Of a DNA stretch of 36,466 nucleotides, positions 6,721 through 29,460 are shown one piece after another. Numbering within the stretch: the stretch's first letter is position 1; every line of letters starts with the position of its first letter. The notes under the pieces were generated by a model that was not told the origin of the DNA, did no database searches, and worked only from the letters and a program-made list of their open reading frames with translations. This DNA is from a virus. The stretch covers positions 1-36,466 of IMG/VR virus record IMGVR_UViG_3300027851_000075. One strand, 5' to 3'. The translations under genes and the position numbers were made by a program.

Positions 6721-6756
6721 AAAATCAACCGCCCAGCTAATGTAGCTGAGCGGTTG
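6721..6756 (-). terminator. Terminator of anti-tRNA RNA, locus 1
   Basis: 14-bp stem with a CAT loop and one G-T pair, followed by ATTTT on the minus strand. Confidence 0.75.
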
Positions 6757-6821
6757 AGTTCATTCCACTCCCCAAAGGACTTGAAATGAACTATCGTCAA
6801 TTCTGACTGTTCTTGCGAAAC
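6721..6821 (-). ncRNA. Anti-tRNA small RNA, locus 1
   Basis: Predicted approximately 100-nt RNA. Its predicted 5' end (6808-6822) is a perfect 15-nt complement of the anticodon arm of the adjacent tRNA (TGTTCTTGCGAAACA in the tRNA). A small hairpin (GTCA GAAT TGAC), a longer GTTCATT/AATGAAC stem and a terminator follow (CAACCGCTCAGCTA/TAGCTGGGCGGTTG, then ATTTT). It has its own promoter at 6828-6856. Locus 2 (29197-29301) repeats this plan with a different tRNA. Confidence 0.65.
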
Positions 6822-6827
6822 ATATAT

Positions 6828-6856
6828 AGTATAACAAATTTTGCATATTGATTCAA
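6828..6856 (-). promoter_or_regulatory. Promoter of anti-tRNA RNA, locus 1
   Basis: TTGAAT (6856-6851), 17-bp spacer, TATACT (6833-6828); predicted +1 at 6821, one base inside the antisense segment. Confidence 0.75.
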
Positions 6857-6863
6857 TATGGAG

Positions 6864-6936
6864 CGCCCCCGGCCAGAATTGAACTGACATATTTTGTTTC
6901 GCAAGAACAACGCTTTGTCCATTAAGCTACAGGGGC
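6864..6936 (-). tRNA. tRNA with anticodon TGC (Ala codon GCA), atypical
   Basis: 73-nt cloverleaf: acceptor GCCCCTG/CGGGGGC, D-stem GCTT/AAGC with loop AATGGACA, anticodon stem TTGTT/AACAA with loop CTTGCGA (anticodon 6901-6903), T-stem GTCAG/CTGGC with loop TTCAATT. No CCA is encoded and the discriminator is G. An alanine tRNA normally carries G3-U70 and A73; here 3-70 is C-G. The body (A20, AATGGA D-loop) is more arginine-like, so charging with alanine is doubtful. Confidence 0.85.
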
Positions 6937-7013
6937 ACTTAGTAATAATTCTAGCACGCATGAATGCAAACCTTTGTTGCGCCTTTATGAAATTACGGTT
7001 TTTTAAGATGCCT

Positions 7014-8898: not shown

Positions 8899-8924
8899 CG
8901 AAAGCACCACCCTCTCTTTGCTGT

Positions 8925-9245
8925 TTGTGTGTATGTTGTGTATGTAGGTGTTTTCAACATACACACTTTCTGGCCCCTGAAATTCTTCCAGGAGACAAAT
9001 CTTCTTAACTCACTTAATACATATACATAGATATACAGATAGTTCACATTTTGACGATCAAACCCGATACCTATGCGCAATAGACGGGCATAGTTTTTTG
9101 AATGTGTGTATGTTGTGTATGTTGTGCACATTGGAATCAGGTTTCCGGCCTTTGTTTTGCTTACTACGGCTGGCTGTTGAGAATGCAAATCAAATCCCCT
9201 CTTTAGCCATAAGACATACACAACATACACAACGTACACAGCCAG
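8925..9245. other. Candidate replication origin with TGTATGTTG iterons
   Basis: At least six copies of TGTATGTTG or its complement (one with a single substitution) in three clusters: 8927-8966, 9104-9126 and 9214-9239. The first cluster is a perfect 12-bp inverted repeat (GTGTGTATGTTG/CAACATACACAC). An AT-rich stretch (9008-9050) lies between. There is no credible gene across these 350 bp, and the primase gene is adjacent. The array could instead be an operator for the genes on either side. Confidence 0.55.
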
Positions 9246-12311: not shown

Positions 12312-12521
12312 TCAACTCGCCCGCAGCATTATGCGAACAAAATTACCTGCCCAATACGCCAAAAACAGCCCCAAAACCGCCCAGGATCCATGGGTTTTGT
12401 TCGCATAATGCCAATTATCCGAACTCGCCCGACCCTGTTTTCTCCGCCCTGCCACTGCGCGGGGTTCTACGGGTGTATATGTGAATTTCCAGATATTTTC
12501 TGCTACTACTAACCTTTTCAT
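12312..12521 (-). CDS. Small basic protein with C-terminal membrane segment
   Basis: 69 residues from the ATG that overlaps the previous stop (ATGA). Basic N-terminal half (RAVAGRRKQGR) and one likely membrane helix (WAVLGLFLAYWAGNFV). No family. The coupling argues for translation; the lack of a clear ribosome site argues for low output. A GC-rich paired region (12243-12305) follows it before the primase gene. Confidence 0.45.
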   Translation of the reverse strand: MKRLVVAENIWKFTYTPVEPRAVAGRRKQGRASSDNWHYANKTHGSWAVLGLFLAYWAGNFVRIMLRAS

Positions 12522-13629: not shown

Positions 13630-14547
13630 TTAAACCATCTCAACCGCATCAGCCAGGTCCTGAAACCCGGGACGCACATAAATCTTGGTAGTTTCAATCG
13701 AACTGTGTCCCAGCAACATGGCCACTTTCTCAATCGAAACCCCCTTATCCACCATTCGTTTACCAAAACTGTGGCGCAGCCGGTGCGGCGTAATATCTTC
13801 CAGGCAGCCCGCCTGCTGTCCCAACGCTTTGATCCGTTTCTGGATCCAGCGCTCAGAGATAGAGAACAATTGCCCACCCATGGCTTCCTGCAGCCACGGA
13901 TTCACCAGGCGCCGTGCCTCTTTACCCAGCGGGACCATGCGTTCCTTCTCGCCTTTGCCCGCATGGATCAACGCATAACCCGATCGCTCGCGAATCACCA
14001 CATCACCGCGGTGGAGATCGACAACTTCAAACTCACGCAAACCGGCATAAGCCATCAAACCAACCATCGCCTGATCTCTCAGAGCATTCATGCGCTGCAT
14101 CGGGCTGCGGGCCGCGTTCACATTCCGCTCTACCTGGCGCATCAATCGGGCAAAATCCAGGTTATCCATCCACCGCGGTTGATTGTCTTGCTGATCCATA
14201 GCCTGAATACCGTCAAACACATCCACCGAAACGAAACCACCCTTCTGACAGAACTCCGCCAATTTCCGCATCGTGCTCATACGCCGGTTCCAGGTAGCAG
14301 CAGCCACACGGCACACATCCACCTGGTAACGCCGGAACGCGTGCATATCCCAGTTGGTCAACTTCTCTGGCGTAAATTCTTCCCCGTTTTCTGCCAGGAA
14401 CCAATCTAAAAACACCGACAGATCCTGCTGAATGGCCTTGTGGGTGTTCGATGAATACCCCATCAGGAATTGACCAACAAAAATTGTCTGCCAGTCTGAA
14501 TCAGATTGGGCAGACACCGCCGCAACTACATTCTTGTTCGATTTCAT
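13630..14547 (-). CDS. Tyrosine recombinase (integrase 1, XerC/D-like)
   Basis: 305 residues: an N-terminal SAM-like arm (about 20-105), then the catalytic domain with Arg in YAGLREFEVV (near 170), HRLRH (255-259), His in LGHSS (281) and the nucleophile Tyr in TKIYV (290). All catalytic residues are present. It cuts and rejoins DNA at att sites or resolves dimers. The start follows AAGGAGC. It faces away from integrase 2, and a tRNA-like sequence lies 177 bp upstream. It lacks the long N-terminal arm-binding domain of lambda Int, so it could also be a resolvase. Confidence 0.9.
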   Translation of the reverse strand: MKSNKNVVAAVSAQSDSDWQTIFVGQFLMGYSSNTHKAIQQDLSVFLDWFLAENGEEFTPEKLTNWDMHAFRRYQVDVCRVAAATWNRRMSTMRKLAEFCQKGGFVSVDVFDGIQAMDQQDNQPRWMDNLDFARLMRQVERNVNAARSPMQRMNALRDQAMVGLMAYAGLREFEVVDLHRGDVVIRERSGYALIHAGKGEKERMVPLGKEARRLVNPWLQEAMGGQLFSISERWIQKRIKALGQQAGCLEDITPHRLRHSFGKRMVDKGVSIEKVAMLLGHSSIETTKIYVRPGFQDLADAVEMV

Positions 14548-16545: not shown

Positions 16546-16598
16546 AACCACAACCCACTTACCACGATTTTAGACATTTCGAACCACAACCCACTTAC
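16546..16598 (+). repeat. Direct repeats, probable integrase arm sites
   Basis: AACCACAACCCACTTAC occurs perfectly at 16546-16562 and 16582-16598, 36 bp apart, just left of the att core. This fits arm-type binding sites of a tyrosine integrase or its excisionase. Confidence 0.65.
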
Positions 16599-16616
16599 AT
16601 ACCCGAAACTGGCCCT

Positions 16617-16794
16617 GTAAGAGGGTTAAGGTAAGTTTTTGCCAGGAACTGCATGGGGTGTAAGAGGTCGAAGGTTCGAATCCTTTCGCCCCGACCATAA
16701 GCCTCTTACAGAGGCAAATCTCCACGGTAAGAGGTCTCTGGTTCACTTTTTGGGCAGTTTTTCAACTCTCAAAAACAACCGGAGACCTCTTACC
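16617..16794. other. Attachment-site region with GTAAGAGG repeats
   Basis: GTAAGAGG lies at 16617, 16660 and 16727, and its complement at 16702 and 16786. The outer pair extends to an 18-bp inverted repeat with one mismatch (16726-16743/16777-16794). The core overlaps the tRNA-Pro fragment. Integrase 2 starts 77 bp to the right. Arms on both sides suggest an intact attP rather than attL or attR. Confidence 0.6.
16651..16697 (+). tRNA. 3' fragment of a tRNA-Pro(GGG), att core
   Basis: Begins at the anticodon loop (ATGGGGT), then the T-arm GAAGG TTCGAAT CCTTT, acceptor strand CGCCCCG, A73 and encoded CCA. No matching 5' half precedes it. This is the part of a tRNA gene that phages carry to restore the gene on integration. 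Confidence 0.75.
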
Positions 16795-16870
16795 ACGGAA
16801 TTCACAAAATACGAATTGCAGCCCTGGTGTTTTCTTCCTACAATCGAATTCCAAGGAGGATACCCCAATT

Positions 16871-17806
16871 ATGCAACTGTCTACAGCCATCAAAACCTAT
16901 GTTCTTTACCTTGCATCCCTCGGCCGCTCTCCCAGTACCATCAGTTACTACCGCGGCTGCATGGAGCGCCTGCAGGCAGCCATCGGTGACCTAGCGGTTG
17001 ATGAGATCACCCACACGCACCTGGTCAATTTCATGGCGGAACAAAACTTCCAGCAAAAATCCCAGGCGACCATGCAGGCCTATTGGAAAACCTTCAAATC
17101 TTTTTTCACCTGGTGCGAAGAGGAGCTGAATTTAAAGAACCGCCCTGACGCCCGCATCAAATGCCCCCAGGTGCCGCCGCCCGAAGTCATTCCCTTCTCG
17201 CACGACGATATCAAAGCCCTGATGCGCGCTGCAGCCCTGACCAACACCTGTCGCACCCGGGGCCGCAAGTCGTATAAAATGCGCCGCCCCACCGCCGCCC
17301 GGGATCTATCGCTGCTCATGCTCATGCTGGATACCGGATTGCGCGTGTCAGAAGTGGCCCGCATCAAGATTGCCGATGTGGATCTGTTTGAATCAGGTTC
17401 CATCCAGGTGCGCGCTTACCGTTCCGGCCAGAAGTCTCGCCCGCGCACCGTTTACATGTCCAAACGCACCGCCTACCAGATCCACCTGTATCTCAACGAA
17501 CGCCACAAACCACACCCCACCGAAGCATTGTTCCTGAGCGCACATCGCAATCCCATGGACAAAGATTCCATCGATGGCGTCATTGCCAACCTGGGAAAAC
17601 GCGCCAACATCAACAAGACCCACCCGCACCGGTTCAGGCATACCTTCGCCATTGAATTTTTGCGCAATGGCGGTGACGTGTATACCCTGCAGCGCATGCT
17701 GGGTCACTCTACCCTCGATATGGTCAAGCGCTACCTGAATATTTCCGAAGTAGATGTCGAAAACGCCCACCGCCTGGCCTCCCCGGTCGATAACTGGCGG
17801 TTGTAA
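16871..17806 (+). CDS. int: Tyrosine recombinase (integrase 2)
   Basis: 311 residues: an N-terminal SAM-like domain (YVLYLASLGRSPSTISYYRG) and a catalytic domain with Arg in DTGLRVSEV (near 155), HRFRH (253-257), His in LGHST (279) and Tyr in VKRYLN (288). All catalytic residues are intact. The ATG follows CAAGGAGG. It lies next to a tRNA 3' fragment flanked by repeats, the usual place of the enzyme that integrates the phage. It is transcribed against the tail operon and ends in a shared terminator. Confidence 0.92.
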   Translation: MQLSTAIKTYVLYLASLGRSPSTISYYRGCMERLQAAIGDLAVDEITHTHLVNFMAEQNFQQKSQATMQAYWKTFKSFFTWCEEELNLKNRPDARIKCPQVPPPEVIPFSHDDIKALMRAAALTNTCRTRGRKSYKMRRPTAARDLSLLMLMLDTGLRVSEVARIKIADVDLFESGSIQVRAYRSGQKSRPRTVYMSKRTAYQIHLYLNERHKPHPTEALFLSAHRNPMDKDSIDGVIANLGKRANINKTHPHRFRHTFAIEFLRNGGDVYTLQRMLGHSTLDMVKRYLNISEVDVENAHRLASPVDNWRL

Positions 17807-29196: not shown

Positions 29197-29301
29197 TAAA
29201 AGGCGCAGCGCCCAAATGCGGGGGCTATTTGAGCGCTGGCGGGGCGGGAGGAAATATTAATTTCAACCCATACCGGTTCTACCGGCAATTTTACTCGCAG
29301 T
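29197..29301 (-). ncRNA. Anti-tRNA small RNA, locus 2
   Basis: Predicted approximately 105-nt RNA beginning exactly at the antisense segment: ACTGCGAGTAAAAT (29301-29288) is complementary to the adjacent tRNA's anticodon arm, and after one extra T the match goes on (GCC). A CCGGT AGA ACCGG hairpin, a GAAAT/ATTTC hairpin and a terminator-like stem (AGCGCTCAAAT/ATTTGGGCGCT) follow, then GCGCCTTTT. Order and length mirror locus 1 although the sequences differ. Confidence 0.65.
29198..29237 (-). terminator. Terminator-like hairpin of anti-tRNA RNA, locus 2
   Basis: 11-bp stem with a nine-base loop; the T-tract is short and offset by five bases, so efficiency is uncertain. Confidence 0.55.
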
Positions 29302-29307
29302 GATTCC

Positions 29308-29336
29308 ATTATACACATTTTACGAACTATTTTCAA
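29308..29336 (-). promoter_or_regulatory. Promoter of anti-tRNA RNA, locus 2
   Basis: TTGAAA (29336-29331), 17-bp spacer, TATAAT (29313-29308); predicted +1 at 29301. A near-consensus sigma70 promoter directly 3' of the tRNA. Confidence 0.85.
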
Positions 29337-29343
29337 GAAATAG

Positions 29344-29416
29344 CTCCCCCGACCGGACTCGAACCGATATTTTTTTTACTGCGAGTAAAATGCCATGTCC
29401 ATTAGGCGACGGGGGA
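29344..29416 (-). tRNA. tRNA with anticodon CGC (Ala codon GCG), atypical
   Basis: 73-nt cloverleaf: acceptor TCCCCCG/CGGGGGA, D-arm GCCT AATGGACA TGGC (three good pairs), anticodon stem TTTTA/TAAAA with loop CTCGCAG (anticodon 29383-29381), T-arm ATCGG TTCGAGT CCGGT. No CCA; discriminator G; pair 3-70 is C-G. As with the tRNA at 6864, the alanine anticodon sits on a body without alanine identity. Confidence 0.88.
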
Positions 29417-29460
29417 ACTACTTAATAATTTTATCATACTCACTAAACACAATATACCGT

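Follow-up and report, generated by a model that had tools for sequence, protein, structure and literature searches.

Two loci in the genome of a tailed, probably temperate phage each hold a tRNA gene and, downstream on the same strand, a predicted small RNA that begins with a perfect complement of the anticodon arm of that tRNA. The best explanation of this arrangement is that each tRNA gene is accompanied by an antisense small RNA of its own, which would sequester the anticodon arm of the tRNA, a reading which we judge to have an even chance of being correct. The phage record IMGVR_UViG_3300027851_000075, a single virus record, was analysed over its full length of 36,466 nt, which is called the window here. 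The phage is considered tailed and probably temperate because the window encodes structural and lysis proteins (portal, terminase, major head, tape measure, holin and endolysin) together with two integrases.

ARAGORN and Rfam find two tRNA genes in the window, both on the minus strand, and no Rfam family other than tRNA reaches the gathering score in it. The tRNA(CGC) of locus 2, which an earlier sequence-only reading of this DNA had described, is called by both programs. The coordinates of the two loci and of the cassette that lies next to them are given in Table 1.

Table 1. Positions of the tRNA genes, predicted promoters, small RNAs and complements, and of the neighbouring cassette
Feature	Positions	Strand	Basis or detail
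tRNA gene, locus 1, anticodon TGC	6863-6936	minus	ARAGORN; Rfam RF00005, 61.2 bits
tRNA gene, locus 2, anticodon CGC	29343-29416	minus	ARAGORN; Rfam RF00005, 52.1 bits
Predicted tRNA promoter, locus 1, extended -10 TGcTAGAAT	6948-6956	minus	read from sequence
Predicted tRNA promoter, locus 2, extended -10 TGaTAAAAT	29428-29436	minus	read from sequence
Antisense-RNA promoter, locus 1, TTGAAT-17-TATACT, TG before -10	6828-6856	minus	consensus scan, 9/12
Antisense-RNA promoter, locus 2, TTGAAA-17-TATAAT	29308-29336	minus	consensus scan, 11/12
Predicted antisense small RNA, locus 1, 101 nt	6721-6821	minus	fold; ends read from sequence
Predicted antisense small RNA, locus 2, 104 nt	29198-29301	minus	fold; ends read from sequence
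15-nt complement, locus 1	6808-6822	minus	pairs with 6895-6909, tRNA nt 28-42, 100%
14-nt guide, locus 2, at predicted RNA 5' end	29288-29301	minus	inverted-repeat search, 100%
Anticodon-arm part matched by locus 2 guide, tRNA nt 26-39	29378-29391	minus	inverted-repeat search, script
Riboswitch-like leader, three copies	6676-6441, 25057-24822, 29123-28889	minus	
Cassette protein family, 95-100 aa	6440-6156, 24821-24537, 28888-28586	minus	
Second structured RNA, four copies	6110-5974, 24494-24356, 28562-28428, 34976-34833	minus	

Complements to the anticodon arms

The 14-nt complement of the locus 2 anticodon arm, which the sequence-only reading had pointed out, is a perfect match, and pairing resumes one base further on, where GCC faces GGC of the D stem, as had also been claimed. 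The claim that locus 1 has the same layout holds as well, with tRNA, promoter and a complement at the start of the RNA. The complement and the anticodon arm lie on one strand, 76 nt apart in locus 2 and 72 nt apart in locus 1. Because the arms of an anticodon stem are inverted repeats themselves, the orientation of the complements is read from the 7-nt anticodon loop, which is antisense in both copies. Neither guide has a second target within the window at up to three mismatches.

A chance origin of the complements is rejected. When the 150-nt downstream flank of each tRNA was shuffled 3000 times per locus, preserving dinucleotides, the longest same-strand complement was 12 nt for locus 1 and 13 nt for locus 2, against 15 and 14 nt observed, and the observed length was reached in 0 of 3000 shuffles at each locus. 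None of 68 control tRNAs, all followed by a flank of 300 nt or more, has so long a complement either, since theirs measure 6-10 nt, except for one case of 12 nt that is a self-palindromic acceptor end. These control tRNAs come from terminase-relative and pattern-match loci, from three genomes and from phage T5, in a collection that also included a stretch of KVP40.

Tyrosine recombinases that target tRNAs typically use a core in the anticodon loop flanked by short inverted arms, and the window encodes two integrases (13630-14547 and 16871-17806). The inverted copies could on this basis belong to a recombinase site, in which the stem provides the arms, the 7-nt loop is the overlap and the inverted copy allows inversion of the segment between. 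This alternative is very unlikely, since the probable attP lies elsewhere, at about 16640-16800 beside the integrase gene at 16871, and inversion would break the tRNA. The locus 2 copy lacks one arm, so that the two loci do not present both arms and the overlap in each copy beside an integrase, as an attachment site does, and the promoter, the +1 position and the folded RNA body are left unexplained. A recombination or attachment site was rejected as the first choice for these reasons.

Promoters and predicted small RNAs

Separate transcription of each small RNA from its own promoter is predicted. The near-consensus promoter of locus 2, noticed in the sequence-only reading, is listed independently by the consensus scan. 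With the predicted +1 set seven nt after each -10, counting confirms the claimed start of the locus 2 RNA at A29301, the first base of the complement, and places that of locus 1 at G6821, the second base of 15. Each tRNA gene is preceded by an extended -10 element, with a gap of 11 nt in both loci; the promoter scan called these elements in neither locus.

Measured to the TTTT end, the two predicted RNAs have 104 nt in locus 2, for which about 105 nt had been claimed, and 101 nt in locus 1. Both are predicted to carry, in this order, a 5' guide, two hairpins, a strong terminator-like 3' hairpin (29240-29203 in locus 2, 6757-6725 in locus 1) and TTTT, and both end TTTTAAAC. The scan called neither 3' hairpin a terminator, because the U run is only TTTT. 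The fold of the locus 1 RNA has a z of -6.52 (106 nt, 6821-6716) and that of the locus 2 RNA a z of -4.19 (108 nt, 29302-29195), and 0 of 200 shuffles were as stable in each case. The locus 2 guide is unpaired in the lowest-energy fold, and the locus 1 guide forms a weak four-pair self-stem in the lowest-energy fold, with a centroid that is almost entirely open.

The same stretches could act in cis, with the complement of a read-through precursor, about 75 nt downstream, folding back onto the anticodon arm and blocking maturation, and with the second promoter as a secondary feature. Such control would suit the position of tRNA and complement on one strand at the short distances given above, with no called terminator between them. 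We regard it as unlikely, because a purely cis-acting element would hardly need a near-consensus promoter placed to start an RNA at the complement, and because the RNA body folds far better than shuffles.

Paired changes and specificity of pairing

The two tRNAs are 72% identical (z of 9.9 against shuffles), and the bodies of the small RNAs past the first 15 nt are unalignable between the loci (z of 1.3). Further downstream, the leader-plus-ORF segments of loci 1 and 2 are 87% identical and the trailing RNAs 94% identical. Both complements cover 12 positions of the anticodon arm, and at 6 of these 12 the pair has changed on both sides, with all pairs Watson-Crick, in what is one comparison between two paralogous loci of one genome. 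These kept pairs, next to unalignable bodies, give good support at the sequence level to the claim that selection on pairing is more likely than chance.

Template switching also yields paired changes. The complements could be a mutational relic, a copy of the anticodon arm made by template switching between arms that are quasi-palindromic, a process that would hold the arms alike even without selection. Such a relic would be in keeping with the fact that only two loci in one genome are known. This origin is highly improbable, because the event must have occurred twice with the same limits, each time with the predicted +1 as its edge and with attachment of a promoter and a structured body, and because the 68 control tRNAs show nothing comparable.

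In a duplex test with the first 18 nt of each guide, the predicted energies are -23.4 and -25.1 kcal/mol with the guide's own tRNA, against -6.9 and -9.3 kcal/mol with the tRNA of the other locus, which suggests mutual specificity of the two modules. Among 69 control tRNAs, the best gives -15.4 and -18.0 kcal/mol. The structure of the tRNA itself has to be opened, so that the net gain on co-folding is a modest -8.0 and -6.6 kcal/mol.

Peculiarities of the tRNAs

The 5' strand of the anticodon stem has one G/C of five in locus 1 and none of five in locus 2, the two lowest values among 71 tRNAs, and all 69 others have at least two of five. The anticodon loops, CTTGCGA and CTCGCAG, are richer in G/C than the stems. 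A loop that seeds pairing and a stem that yields would together supply what strand invasion needs.

Both tRNAs have the NGC anticodon of bacterial tRNA-Ala (TGC and CGC). The G3:U70 acceptor pair is an identity determinant for AlaRS, and both phage tRNAs have C3:G70 in its place; the three control Ala tRNAs, with ends read by eye, all have G3:U70. Because they combine alanine anticodons with the lack of G3:U70, both tRNAs may stay uncharged, receive the wrong amino acid or be charged in some unusual way. A20 with G73 are features of arginine tRNAs. In a control sample too small to single out a charging enzyme, the nearest tRNA bodies are those of Asn for both, followed by Phe and Arg or Glu and Arg types. 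Among 720 alanine codons in 16 counted ORFs of the phage, 188 are GCA and 274 are GCG.

The lack of the alanine determinant, by which the tRNA bodies may not be ordinary decoders, bears on another alternative, in which the small RNA targets another RNA, such as a host tRNA or mRNA, and the phage tRNA is a sponge or antidote that protects host or phage. The sRNA2 of PAK_P3, which has a tRNA-like stretch, is proposed to act on host translation in the available part of its description (PMC4933390). We hold this alternative to be improbable, because the guides fit their own tRNA much better than any of the 69 control tRNAs, and because no other guide target lies within the window.

Proposed mechanism

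The analysis shows the layout of the sequence, the complementarity, the paired changes and the predicted energies; we infer transcription, binding, sequestration and a biological purpose as follows for the preferred reading, a dedicated antisense RNA for each tRNA. Each locus would be a two-gene RNA module of a temperate phage, with a tRNA transcribed from its own predicted promoter and, as the second gene, an independently transcribed small RNA of about 100 nt. The 5' end of this RNA would be a single-stranded 14-nt guide against the anticodon loop and one side of the stem, which would meet the G/C-rich 7-nt anticodon loop first and would next invade the anticodon stem, built of A/U only or nearly so. 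The paired tRNA would be kept from the ribosome or marked for decay, and free tRNA would act only once the small RNA falls. The purpose might be to confine the tRNA in time to the lytic phase, or to supply an antidote, made of RNA only, against a tRNA that does harm in the lysogen; the pair of tRNA and antisense possibly serves as an RNA-only antidote or switch.

A stronger version, an RNA-only addiction or abortive-infection module with a toxin tRNA, an antisense antidote and two mutually specific copies in the prophage, is doubtful. In this version the tRNA would read GCA or GCG without the alanine identity pair, giving the wrong amino acid or stalled decoding, and the separate antisense would kiss the anticodon loop and unzip a purpose-weakened stem. 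When host transcription is shut off, the short-lived antisense would vanish and the module would fire.

If the preferred reading, a tRNA with its own antisense RNA, is true, it would be a new way to switch a tRNA off, in which tRNAs are regulated or neutralised singly by cheap RNA partners. It would also make it possible to test directly whether the tRNAs of phages are always there for translation, and would offer a simple design for tRNA-specific switches.

Occurrence in relatives

Other contigs with the flanking cassette are 100% identical fragments of the same phage. Searches with the leader 23-mer, the ORF protein, the 16-mer of the trailing RNA and the tRNA pattern found only the same phage or chance matches; 9 of the 11 stretches found with the 16-mer are chance 16-mers without further similarity, and two of the three found with the tRNA pattern are not tRNAs. 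With the phage's own contigs excluded, the relatives among viral contigs are distant, with best identities of 38% for the terminase, 50% for the portal and 52% for the major head protein.

ARAGORN finds no tRNA gene in 85 related loci from the portal and head searches, which include the best 80 of 135 stretches matching the portal. Four of 43 whole related records have a match to the tRNA model (three over the cut-off) and the arrangement is absent from these records, where the five tRNA-like matches have no complement longer than 8 nt within 400 nt. Among the loci compared, 11 tRNAs outside this phage have complements of at most 9 nt.

The sequence-only reading had named absence from all relatives as a result that would refute its claim. 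Absence is what was found in the 85 loci and the 43 records; we take it as a sign that the arrangement arose recently and belongs to this phage alone, and do not count the claim as refuted. It does remove the comparative evidence that the sequence-only reading had looked for in homologues, and the module is known from one phage only, by its DNA sequence.

A related contig with a major head protein of 37% identity, IMGVR_UViG_3300028887_000208, has four tRNA-like units on the reverse strand at stretch positions 580-1320. These units have about 110-125 nt, are closed by stems of 7-9 bp and start TACAGCAAA. Two of them are permuted, with the anticodon and T arm followed by the 5' half, and one is a tRNA of normal order. 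They look like circularly permuted tRNA genes in a phage.

Comparison with known systems

Known targets of antisense RNAs are mRNAs and plasmid primers. Type I antitoxins and other antisense regulators are short structured RNAs with their own promoter, placed beside a complementary target. The phage RNAs resemble these regulators in having their own predicted promoter, in lying beside the target and in offering single-stranded, perfectly complementary nucleotides, with extended complementarity (14 and 15 nt) in an accessible, open part of the RNA. They differ in that the target is the anticodon arm of a tRNA, not an mRNA, and in that the RNA lies downstream on the same strand, not on the opposite strand. 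A type I toxin-antitoxin system, whose target is the mRNA of a small membrane peptide, was rejected as an identity, the complement lying in a tRNA and no second target in the window. In the available text of open PMC papers, no antisense RNA to the anticodon arm of a neighbouring tRNA is described.

In CreTA, an RNA toxin sequesters a rare tRNA and is repressed by a CRISPR-like RNA, according to the accessible portion of its description (PMC8501985). The phage module would share with it an RNA-only toxin side that works through a specific tRNA. As outlined in the same excerpts (PMC8501985), CreT holds the tRNA through the codons of a mini-ORF and CreA directs a CRISPR effector, whereas the phage module has a direct antisense to the anticodon arm. 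CreTA, with its CRISPR-repeat-like antitoxin RNA and type I effector, was set aside as an identity, because tRNA is the only family at the Rfam gathering score and no cas gene is found among the scanned proteins.

The sRNA2 of PAK_P3 lies between phage tRNA genes, and 11 nt of it are found within the T-loop of host tRNAs, as reported in the consulted sections of the source (PMC4933390). It is alike in its size of about 100 nt, in being encoded by a phage beside tRNA genes and in its connection with tRNA sequence, but those sections describe no complementarity between it and the anticodon arm of a tRNA next to it (PMC4933390). Phage T5, by its annotation, also has stable RNAs of unknown function interleaved with tRNA genes, but no tRNA in its annotated control stretch has a same-strand complement longer than 10 nt within 400 nt.

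A T-box leader was rejected, since Rfam shows no T-box match near either locus with E values as high as 10. Other known RNA families were rejected in the same way, since within this E limit Rfam gives only sub-threshold matches, of which the reverse strand of the tRNAs is the strongest.

Neighbouring cassette and other features of the window

Both tRNA modules lie just upstream of a cassette that is present three times in the genome and comprises, in this order, a promoter, a structured leader of about 210 nt, an ORF with roughly 95-100 codons and, last, a second structured RNA. Upstream of the middle copy (25101-24350) there is neither a tRNA nor an antisense.

The leader starts with AGAGAC followed by five copy-specific bases (ACCCA, GGGCA or CTCCA). 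An address of 10-11 nt stands at its 5' end, in an inverted copy near its 3' end and at the ribosome-binding site of the ORF; it differs between copies and always matches within a copy, so that the three sites vary in step. Between the address sites there is a terminator-like hairpin. This layout suggests a translational switch with anti-anti-SD, anti-SD and SD, and the phage seems to maintain several pairs of RNA addresses that are specific to a copy. In Rfam, leader copies one and three have sub-threshold matches only.

The cassette proteins are 80% identical between copies, and no relatives were found in phage records, in IMG/VR apart from the phage's own contigs, or in GTDB genomes; the only match is a weak and partial one to a plasmid (E 0.2). 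The structure model, made from an alignment of three sequences, has four helices and is poor (mean pLDDT 67.1).

Each copy of the second structured RNA immediately precedes a late operon (scaffold/head, tape measure, neck and holin). After a promoter-like stretch come two hairpins side by side, then a third one and a terminator whose tip varies. Our guess, by analogy with HK022 as presented in extracts of the source (PMC9378689), is that it may be a put-like leader of late operons.

The attP-like region at 16560-16870 contains a tRNA 3' end (about 16660-16695, within about 16640-16700) with direct and inverted repeats, and adjoins the integrase gene at 16871-17806. In the gap that precedes the primase gene, at 12326-12411, lies an inverted repeat of 17 bp with its copies about 50 nt apart. 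Immediately downstream of this gene, at 8917-9240, there are tandem-like TGTGTATGTTG repeats together with inverted copies.
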